From the NCBI GenBank assembly GCA_018677555.1, contig JAHHOT010000043.1, positions 1 to 45,912 of the forward strand: a DNA stretch of 45,912 nucleotides. The letters are read 5' to 3'. The notes under the pieces were generated by a model. That model was given only the letters and a program-made list of their open reading frames with translations. It had not been told where the DNA came from and ran no database searches. A program made the position numbers and the translations under genes. Shown here one piece after another: positions 40,204-42,918 of this stretch. Each line of letters opens with the position of its first letter. Position 1 is the stretch's first letter. Origin of the DNA: Gammaproteobacteria bacterium (GTDB lineage: Bacteria; Pseudomonadota; Gammaproteobacteria; Steroidobacterales; Woeseiaceae).

Positions 40204-41070
40204 TCAGACCGCCATCGAGGTACGCAGTTTCCGGATTGCGTTGCTCTCGATTTGCCGGATGCGCTCGGCGGACACGCCATACTCGCCGGCAAGATCATGC
40301 AGCGTCAGCTTGTCTTCGGTAAGCCAGCGCGTTTCCAGAATCCGCCGGCTACGGTCGTCCAGCTTTTCCAGCGCCGCTGACATCCGTGATGTCGCATCGT
40401 CGTGCCAGTCCTCGTTTTCAACGAGGGTTGCGGGATCCGAGTCGGCACTCGGCAAAAAAGCGGCCGGCGAATATACGCGATCCTCGTCCGAGGAATCCGG
40501 TACCGGATCGAACACCGCATCACGTGAACTCAGGCGCCGTTCCATCTCCGTCACTTCCTTCGGGCTTACGCCGAGATCCTTGGCAACCGCCTGGGTTTCG
40601 GCATGCGACAGCCAGGCAAGGCTTTTCTTCGACTTGCGCAGGTTGAAGAACAATTTTCGCTGCGCCTTGGTGGTCGCCACTTTGACGATACGCCAGTTGC
40701 GCAGGACGAATTCGTGGATCTCGGCTCGAATCCAGTGCACGGCGAAGGACACCAGCCGCACGTCGTAGTCGGGGTCGAACCGCTTCACGGCCTTCATGAG
40801 GCCAACGTTGCCCTCCTGGATCAGATCGGCGATCGGCAGTCCGTAGCCGGTGTAGCCCTTGGCGATGTGCACGACGAATCGCAGGTGCGCCATGACGAGT
40901 TCGCGCGCAGCTTCGAGATCCTCGTGGTCGCGAAATCGTCGCGCAAGGCTCTGCTCGTCTTCCTTGCTAAGAACAGGAATCGAGCCCACTGCGTGGATGT
41001 AAGCGTCAAGACTGCCAACCGGTCCGGCGACGGCCAGATCATGCGTCATCGTTGCGATAGCCTTAGTCAT
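40204..41070 (-). CDS. rpoH: Heat-shock sigma factor sigma-32
   Basis: A 288-residue sigma factor that directs RNA polymerase to heat-shock promoters (chaperones, proteases). Region 2 contains HLRFVVHIAKGYTGYGLPIADLIQEGNVGLMKAVKRFDPDYDVRLVSFAVHWIRAEI; the RpoH box that separates sigma-32 from other sigma factors is QRKLFFNLRKSKKS; region 4 ends ERIRQIESNAIRKLR. It follows ftsX as in most gammaproteobacteria. A GGAGG is 12 bases before the ATG, a long spacing, and a four-codon ORF (ATGAATCACAGATGA) sits between. CIRCE lies 37-63 bases before the ATG. Confidence 0.96.
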   Translation of the reverse strand: MTKAIATMTHDLAVAGPVGSLDAYIHAVGSIPVLSKEDEQSLARRFRDHEDLEAARELVMAHLRFVVHIAKGYTGYGLPIADLIQEGNVGLMKAVKRFDPDYDVRLVSFAVHWIRAEIHEFVLRNWRIVKVATTKAQRKLFFNLRKSKKSLAWLSHAETQAVAKDLGVSPKEVTEMERRLSSRDAVFDPVPDSSDEDRVYSPAAFLPSADSDPATLVENEDWHDDATSRMSAALEKLDDRSRRILETRWLTEDKLTLHDLAGEYGVSAERIRQIESNAIRKLRTSMAV

Positions 41071-41103
41071 CTGTGATTCATTCCTCCGTAAATCGGTAGA
41101 CGT

Positions 41104-41133
41104 ATTTTAGCACTCGTCAGGTTAGAGTGCTAA
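41104..41133 (-). promoter_or_regulatory. Candidate sigma-70 promoter of rpoH
   Basis: On the minus strand TTAGCA (41133-41128) and TAAAAT (41109-41104) lie 18 bases apart. Both elements fall within or touch the CIRCE element, so HrcA binding would block it. A more AT-rich stretch further upstream (41160-41195) could hold another promoter, but no good pair is seen. Confidence 0.5.
41107..41133. promoter_or_regulatory. CIRCE element (HrcA operator)
   Basis: TTAGCACTC (41107-41115), a 9-base spacer and GAGTGCTAA (41125-41133): a perfect match to the 9-9-9 CIRCE consensus. HrcA represses heat-shock operons such as groESL through this site. Here it lies in the rpoH promoter region, so repression of rpoH by HrcA is predicted. 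No groESL or hrcA gene is in the window. Confidence 0.9.
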
Positions 41134-41225
41134 CAGACCGGCCGGGTTCCGTGAATATTACCAAAATAAATATAGTAAAATCAGTAATTTACAAGGTATA
41201 CGTCACGCCGGATTATGTAATAAAG

Positions 41226-41246
41226 AAAAAAGCCGCGAGCTAGCGG
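41226..41246 (-). terminator. Short terminator overlapping the ftsX stop
   Basis: On the minus strand CCGC-TAGCTC-GCGG is followed by a T run (AAAAAA at 41226-41231 on the plus strand). The ftsX stop TAG lies in the loop. The 4-bp stem is weak, so some readthrough into rpoH is possible. Confidence 0.5.
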
Positions 41247-42205
41247 GGTTCGATGCGGCGCATGTGCCGCGCGGCGGCAATCCACGAGCCCGCGAGCCCC
41301 AGGAACACGGCGATTCCGACGATTGCCAGGCTCTCCATGAGGTCCAGTGACAGCATGCGATAGGCACTGTTGTACAGCCCGGCGAGGCGGGCTACCGGCT
41401 GCTCGAGCATGCGCAGCCCGGATGCGATCATGCCGAGCGCCAGCAGGCCACCGCCGAGGCCGTACCAGATCCCCGTGTACAGAAACGGGCGGCGAACGAA
41501 CGCGTTACTCGCACCGATGAGCTTGGTGACCTCGATCTCCTCGCGACGGTTCTGAATGTCGAGTCGAATCGTGTTGCCAATAACCACGACGATTGCTACC
41601 CCGAGCAGACCACTGGTCATCAGGATCGCGCGCTCCAGGATATCCAGGATCGCGTGAAAGCGGCGAACCCAGTCAGTATCTGCCTGTACAAAATCCGTTT
41701 CCGGCAAATTGGCCAGTTCCTCGTTGAGCAGAACGAGCGATGCTTCTGTATTACCCGTTCCCGGCCGAATGACCAGCGTGTGGGGCAACGGGTTCGCCGC
41801 CAGGTGATCCAGAGCGGCGCCGAATCCGGACGCTTCACGGAATTCCTGTAGCGCTTCTTCTGCCGGGATGACGGTTACCGATTCGACGTCCGCGCGCTGT
41901 TCGATGATGCTGGCGAGCTGTTGTGCGTCCTCAACGGTTACGTCGGAGGTCAGGTAGAGCGAGAAGTCGAGCGCATTGCCCCAACTGCGGCTGATCGATT
42001 GCGCGTTTTTCACGACGAGGTGCATGGCCGCCGGCAGCGCGAGAGTGACACCGATCACGAGGACGGTCATGAGACTTGCGAACGGATGGTGCACCAGCCG
42101 CCCGAGCGCGCCAACACAGGTACTCACATGTCGTACGAACCAGGTTCGCAGCGGGCTCGCCGGCGCCGCGGGCTTGAGCACTTCCGTTGCCGGCCTTACT
42201 GCCAC
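41240..42205 (-). CDS. ftsX: Cell-division protein FtsX (ABC-transporter-like permease)
   Basis: 321 residues from a GTG at 42205, which overlaps the end of ftsE by 10 bases; the track start at 42307 reads through ftsE in another frame. FtsX pairs with FtsE in the inner membrane and activates periplasmic cell-wall hydrolases during division. One N-terminal helix (LMTVLVIGVTLALPAAMHLVV) precedes the periplasmic domain (SLYLTSDVTVEDAQQLASIIEQRADVESVTVI), followed by three C-terminal helices around GNTIRLDIQNRREEIEVTKLIGAS. The length and order match other FtsX. Confidence 0.93.
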   Translation of the reverse strand: MAVRPATEVLKPAAPASPLRTWFVRHVSTCVGALGRLVHHPFASLMTVLVIGVTLALPAAMHLVVKNAQSISRSWGNALDFSLYLTSDVTVEDAQQLASIIEQRADVESVTVIPAEEALQEFREASGFGAALDHLAANPLPHTLVIRPGTGNTEASLVLLNEELANLPETDFVQADTDWVRRFHAILDILERAILMTSGLLGVAIVVVIGNTIRLDIQNRREEIEVTKLIGASNAFVRRPFLYTGIWYGLGGGLLALGMIASGLRMLEQPVARLAGLYNSAYRMLSLDLMESLAIVGIAVFLGLAGSWIAAARHMRRIEPR

Positions 42206-42918
42206 AGGTCTCCCTGCTCCTCGAGCAATCGCTCGCTGTATTCGGTAACGATGTCTTCTTCTTCCTCGATCTCGATGCGGCCGTTCGACAGAGGAATACG
42301 CCGGCAACCCAGTTGATCAATCAGCGCGATGTCGTGGCTCGCGATCAGAAGAGTCACGCCGACTTCATTGAATCGCCGGAAGATCCGCATGACTTCCAGC
42401 GAGAGGTCCGGGTCGAGATTGCCGGTCGGCTCGTCTGCAATCAGCAGCTTCGGTCGCGTGACAATGGCTCGCGCAATACCGACGCGTTGCTGTTCACCCG
42501 TGGACAGGGTTTCCGGCGACTGTTTTTCCTTGTTCAGTAAATCGACCTGGTCCAGCGCGGCGCGTACCTTGCGCGCCGCATCGCGATGACTGACACCGGC
42601 GATGATCAGGGGCAGAGCCACGTTGTCGAACACGGGGCGGTCATAAAGCAGTTTGTGGTCCTGGAACACCATGCCGATCTGGCGGCGATAGGCTGGAATG
42701 CGCCGGCGCGAAACGCGACTCGTGTTCTGCCCGTCGACGACAACGCTGCCGCTCGTGGGCCGGTCGATCAACGCGATCAAGCGGAGCAACGTACTCTTGC
42801 CCGCGCCCGAGTGCCCGGTGATGAAAACCATTTCGCCGGTTTCGATCGACAATGACAAACCGCTCAGCGCTTCCTGCCCACCGGGAAAACGCTTGGTGAC
42901 ATTGTCAATCTGAATCAA
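42196..42918 (-). CDS. ftsE: Cell-division ATP-binding protein FtsE
   Basis: A 240-residue cytosolic ATPase. Walker A is GHSGAGKSTLLRLI, the Q-loop MVFQDHKLL, the ABC signature LSTGEQQRVGIARAI, and Walker B LLIADEPTGNLD. FtsE drives conformational change in FtsX to switch on amidase activators at the septum. It is 9 bases after ftsY and overlaps ftsX by 10 bases, so ftsY-ftsE-ftsX form one leftward unit. The C-terminal end (DIVTEYSERLLEEQGDLWQ) is slightly longer than average. Confidence 0.95.
   Translation of the reverse strand: MIQIDNVTKRFPGGQEALSGLSLSIETGEMVFITGHSGAGKSTLLRLIALIDRPTSGSVVVDGQNTSRVSRRRIPAYRRQIGMVFQDHKLLYDRPVFDNVALPLIIAGVSHRDAARKVRAALDQVDLLNKEKQSPETLSTGEQQRVGIARAIVTRPKLLIADEPTGNLDPDLSLEVMRIFRRFNEVGVTLLIASHDIALIDQLGCRRIPLSNGRIEIEEEEDIVTEYSERLLEEQGDLWQ

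Follow-up and report, generated by a model that had tools for sequence, protein, structure and literature searches.

The 45,912-nucleotide stretch of DNA analysed here (hereafter the window) raises the question of how rpoH, the gene of the sigma factor sigma-32, is controlled in bacteria that encode the repressor HrcA. Textbook control of sigma-32 derives from Escherichia coli, which lacks HrcA. In the window, the region upstream of rpoH carries a zero-mismatch CIRCE, TTAGCACTC-N9-GAGTGCTAA with GTCAGGTTA as the N9 loop, at 41107-41133, and we found no second match at up to 3 mismatches in the window. Our motif search confirms the preliminary description of this locus, which had placed a perfect CIRCE 37-63 bases before the rpoH ATG (41070, minus strand). 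The interval 41104-41133 consists of the CIRCE and three further bases, AAT, which complete a -10 hexamer. The features that matter for the analysis are the following:

40204..41070, minus strand: rpoH, encoding sigma-32, 288 aa (TIGR02392, 404 bits; NF005143, 424 bits)
41082..41087, minus strand: Shine-Dalgarno-like GGAGGA before rpoH, from the sequence
41104..41112, minus strand: TGCTAAAAT, putative sigma-70-type extended -10 that shares bases with the right CIRCE arm; final T kept in 84 of 95 rpoH loci
41107..41133, no strand assigned: CIRCE, perfect predicted HrcA operator (TTAGCACTC-N9-GAGTGCTAA), from the motif match and its conservation before rpoH
41122..41126, minus strand: putative sigma-E-type -10, TCTAA; 72 of 95 rpoH CIRCEs have TCNNA here
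41128..41133, minus strand: TTAGCA, weak sigma-70 -35, entirely CIRCE sequence
41145..41150, minus strand: putative sigma-E-type -35, GGAACC; 61 of 95 rpoH loci have GAAC equally far from CIRCE

The target gene is indeed rpoH, as had been proposed, since its product scores well above the RpoH equivalog cut-off (404 bits against 323 for TIGR02392). Its nearest relatives, at 77-81% identity, come from Woeseiaceae and other uncultured Gammaproteobacteria. The gene order ftsY-ftsE-ftsX-rpoH agrees with the ftsX-rpoH neighbourhood of E. coli, and because ftsX lies on the same strand as rpoH, the CIRCE would serve rpoH only. The ftsX open reading frame listed at window 41240-42307 (minus strand) has 355 aa, begins with TTG, and overlaps with ftsE. 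Because its match to the FtsX model begins at residue 60, the true start probably lies inside this frame.

The host is a Woeseiaceae-like gammaproteobacterium whose genome of 4.24 Mb is 82% complete. The preliminary description had suggested searching this genome for hrcA and for other copies of CIRCE, and both were found. The hrcA gene, a 352-aa frame on contig C46 (E=3.4e-65; PF01628, 221 bits), sits just upstream of grpE and has no CIRCE of its own, the best match there having 7 mismatches. The genome holds exactly two CIRCEs at up to 3 mismatches, one at rpoH and one before groESL. It also encodes RpoE (TIGR02939, 300 bits) with RseA (PF03872, 41 bits) adjoining, and GAACTT-N16-TCTAT is present before rpoE.

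The arrangement is conserved in relatives, another point that the preliminary description had put forward for checking. In a sample of 60 genomes of the same order, host included, rpoH was found in 57 and CIRCE in 58, and nearly all carry exactly two copies of CIRCE. Once coordinates had been matched and loci inspected, 55 of the 57 genomes with the gene proved to have a CIRCE immediately upstream of it. In one of the remaining two (G033) the locus is split across contigs. The other (G047) is a clear exception, where profile and motif searches detected no hrcA, no CIRCE anywhere, and no element at rpoH.

We then considered the class as a whole, using 140 genomes, one per family and, except for the host genome, no less than 90% complete, and counting a CIRCE when it had at most 3 mismatches and lay within about 350 bases upstream of rpoH, with start codons estimated from alignment offsets. 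In hrcA-positive genomes, a CIRCE precedes rpoH at 90 of the 99 loci, corresponding to 90 of 98 genomes; in hrcA-negative ones, it does so at 5 of 31 (Fisher p=4.9e-15), a p-value that is indicative, given that taking one genome per family lessens shared ancestry without removing it, and a contrast in which the absence of hrcA from draft genomes may reflect incompleteness. Two genomes with rpoH near contig ends, G117 and G185, have the element with 1 and 0 mismatches, respectively. Of the nine hrcA-positive loci lacking it, two (G092 and G155) retain half-sites. In the hrcA-negative genome G125, the left arm and TGCTAAAAT are kept and the right arm is broken, a pattern that fits an operator in decay. 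A CIRCE-like element persists at rpoH in five genomes for which no hrcA was detected, perhaps because their hrcA was missed or is divergent. Among genomes in which hrcA was not detected, G139, G176, G073, and G169 still have a good CIRCE (0-1 mismatch) before rpoH, which may reflect a missed hrcA, a very recent loss, or another binding protein. Outside the class, 36 of the 39 rpoH upstream regions from other Pseudomonadota lack CIRCE. The other three, all from genomes of one family of the same phylum outside Gammaproteobacteria, have a CIRCE and no GAAC box before an rpoH-like gene (L399, L407, and L408, in G255, G235, and G251), perhaps an independent gain. In one rpoH upstream region from Kangiellaceae (L080, about 2840-2902), a second, degenerate CIRCE-like repeat (TTAGCACTCATCAGCATAAGGTGCCAA) stands just before the perfect one.

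Judged by its repeat, the presence of hrcA in the genome, its position before a heat-shock gene, and its conservation and co-occurrence with hrcA, the element is, as far as sequence can tell, a genuine CIRCE. The distribution suggests that control of rpoH by HrcA is ancient, extends across the class, and disappeared together with hrcA.

Which promoter would this operator control? The preliminary description had proposed a single one, with TTAGCA (41133-41128) and TAAAAT (41109-41104) 18 apart. Our promoter scan finds this pair and a TG before the -10, and TGCTAAAAT with TTAGCA matches the extended -10 pattern of sigma-70 promoters (TGN-TANNNT, with a -35 at 16-18). The two halves of the pair differ in their standing. 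TAAAAT is backed by a T three bases past CIRCE that is conserved specifically at rpoH (84/95 rpoH loci in the class sample, against 11/87 groESL loci). TTAGCA is simply CIRCE sequence, and its conservation is no independent evidence because it is present wherever CIRCE occurs.

The single-promoter picture had missed a second conserved pattern, GGAACC-N-TCTAA, which is interleaved with the CIRCE. When aligned on CIRCE, rpoH loci share an upstream block, GGAAC(T/C)(T), whose GAAC begins 15-16 bases before the operator. In the class sample, GAAC occupies these positions (-16/-15) in 61 of 95 rpoH loci and at none of the 87 groESL CIRCEs; in a set of 93 rpoH loci, it was found in 60, against a mean of 1.1 and a maximum of 6 in shuffles. 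About a third of the rpoH CIRCEs lack it. The loop shows a linked bias, TCNNA, with TC from the CIRCE arm and NNA in the loop (72/95 at rpoH vs 14/87 at groESL). In the window, the TCTAA straddles the boundary between left arm and N9 loop, taking 2 bases from the end of the former and 3 from the start of the latter, and the spacer from GAACCC to TCTAA is 17 bases, within the 16-17 that separate the -35 hexamer from a sigma-E -10 of the form TCTRA or TCNNA. The -35 of the window reads GGAACC, where the full motif is GGAACTT. The published RpoE consensus for Shewanella, Pseudomonas, and E. coli is GAACTT-16/17-TCCAAA, and rpoH is among the Shewanella targets (PMC4336711). Since GGAAC-N18/19-TCTAA occurs in 4 copies in the host genome, with no excess over the reversed control, our assignment to sigma-E rests on position across species. 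Taken together, we read the GAAC block and TCNNA as a predicted sigma-E-type promoter, with -35 GGAACTT, 16-17 bases, and -10 TCNNA. Hence, the CIRCE at rpoH is probably, in most cases, interlocked with a sigma-E-type promoter, and two stress signals would meet on one stretch of 50 bases. The sequence, its conservation, the gene content, and the fixed geometry of promoter and operator are direct observations.

For comparison, the groESL CIRCEs of the class sample are preceded by TTGA at about -27 (74/87) and CTAT at -6 (46/87) instead of GAAC. The host groESL promoter (L002:1459-1527, in G000 contig C266) reads CTTGAAT-N13-CCCTATTA, which we take from the established consensus to be sigma-32-like, and it directly abuts a perfect CIRCE. 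These patterns point to a second, gene-specific promoter-operator geometry at groESL.

The rpoH pattern could also be explained by an HrcA operator laid over a lone sigma-70 promoter, TTAGCA/TAAAAT, the GGAAC box not being a working promoter. The scan result with its TG, the final T of the -10, whose conservation is confined to rpoH, and the third of rpoH CIRCE loci without GAAC at its fixed place all fit such an arrangement. It leaves unexplained a GAAC box that recurs in 61 of 95 loci when shuffles yield about one and groESL none, as well as the linked TCNNA bias, and rpoH is a known target of sigma-E in E. coli (PMC8745692) and Shewanella (PMC4336711). We consider this explanation unlikely.

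The two remaining alternatives deny the element a role as operator. The palindrome might work mainly as RNA, folding into a 5'-leader stem-loop that alters transcript stability or translation. In other bacteria, CIRCE elements fall inside the transcript at some genes, which lends this idea some plausibility. At the present locus, a sigma-70 start would be expected about 7 bases after 41104, leaving the CIRCE outside the transcript, and from a sigma-E start at most its 3' part would be transcribed. Moreover, the element tracks hrcA across the class (90/99 vs 5/31), a link not required of an RNA element, and we regard this role as very improbable. That the palindrome is a chance or decayed one without function has a negligible likelihood in our view: 100 dinucleotide shuffles of the window gave no CIRCE match, even when 3 mismatches were allowed, and about 90 families have kept the element.

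The interlocked operator and promoters have partial counterparts in known systems. In E. coli, the promoter rpoHP3 is driven by sigma-E (PMC8745692). Our positive control recovered GAACTT-N16-TCTGA (spacer 16) at E. coli rpoH, in the same ftsX-rpoH spacer as here. The E. coli locus differs in having no CIRCE and in that the promoter motif begins 120 bases from the ATG; a control search of E. coli found no hrcA. In Caulobacter, GroESL keeps HrcA folded and active at the groESL CIRCE; the operator and the repressor family are the same, whereas the target there is the chaperonin itself and not a sigma factor (PMC8119881). Binding of HrcA is known to be enhanced by GroE (PMC8533110). A CIRCE upstream of rpoH is not unique to the host: besides being widespread, the arrangement was already predicted in 2004 in Geobacter sulfurreducens (PMC545781, Table 8). 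There, too, a perfect CIRCE lies close upstream of rpoH, at -51, the genome has hrcA, and groESL is another target. G. sulfurreducens belongs to another phylum, and its hrcA-grpE-dnaK-dnaJ bears a CIRCE, unlike the hrcA of our host; the consulted parts of the paper describe no overlap with sigma-E at the rpoH CIRCE (PMC545781). In the searchable literature (titles, abstracts, and selected passages), we found no interlock of sigma-E promoter and CIRCE at rpoH, and a search combining rpoH, sigmaE, and HrcA gave no result. Within that literature, what is new is the interlock with a predicted sigma-E promoter, the CIRCE before rpoH being already known from the G. sulfurreducens prediction.

The results support the reading of the preliminary description that HrcA acts over rpoH, presumably as a repressor. 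Two of the conditions it had named as refuting, a genome lacking hrcA and an element not conserved in relatives, do not hold. We think it very likely that the operator puts rpoH transcription under the chaperonin-sensing HrcA and is interlocked with promoters of the sigma-E type and of the sigma-70 extended -10 type. Binding of HrcA, repression, use of the promoters, and the signal are what we infer in the following scheme. The left CIRCE arm and the loop would supply the -10 of the sigma-E promoter, and the right arm with AAT that of the sigma-70 promoter. At rest, free GroEL would keep HrcA folded and bound to the rpoH CIRCE, masking both -10 elements. Misfolded protein would titrate GroEL and HrcA would leave the site, allowing sigma-70, together with sigma-E under envelope stress, to transcribe rpoH. 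Sigma-32 would then transcribe groESL, whose own CIRCE would be released simultaneously, and the rise in GroESL would reactivate HrcA, closing the loop and restoring repression. Envelope stress sensed via RpoE would thus be a second input, subject to a veto by HrcA. One may go further and suppose that the ancestral gammaproteobacterial rpoH was a logic gate, with a sigma-E promoter for envelope stress and a sigma-70 promoter nested in a single HrcA operator answering to cytosolic chaperonin load, and that the E. coli circuit was derived from it after the loss of hrcA and CIRCE, with the sigma-E promoter left behind; on this history we are evenly divided.

If most hrcA-bearing Gammaproteobacteria gate rpoH by chaperonin availability, their heat-shock control would be a nested GroEL-feedback loop in which HrcA stands over both rpoH and groESL, and envelope stress would feed in through sigma-E at the same rpoH site. 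The fixed geometry of promoter and operator makes this scheme testable in cultured strains, and the natural series of hrcA losses would allow the origin of the E. coli-type circuit to be studied.
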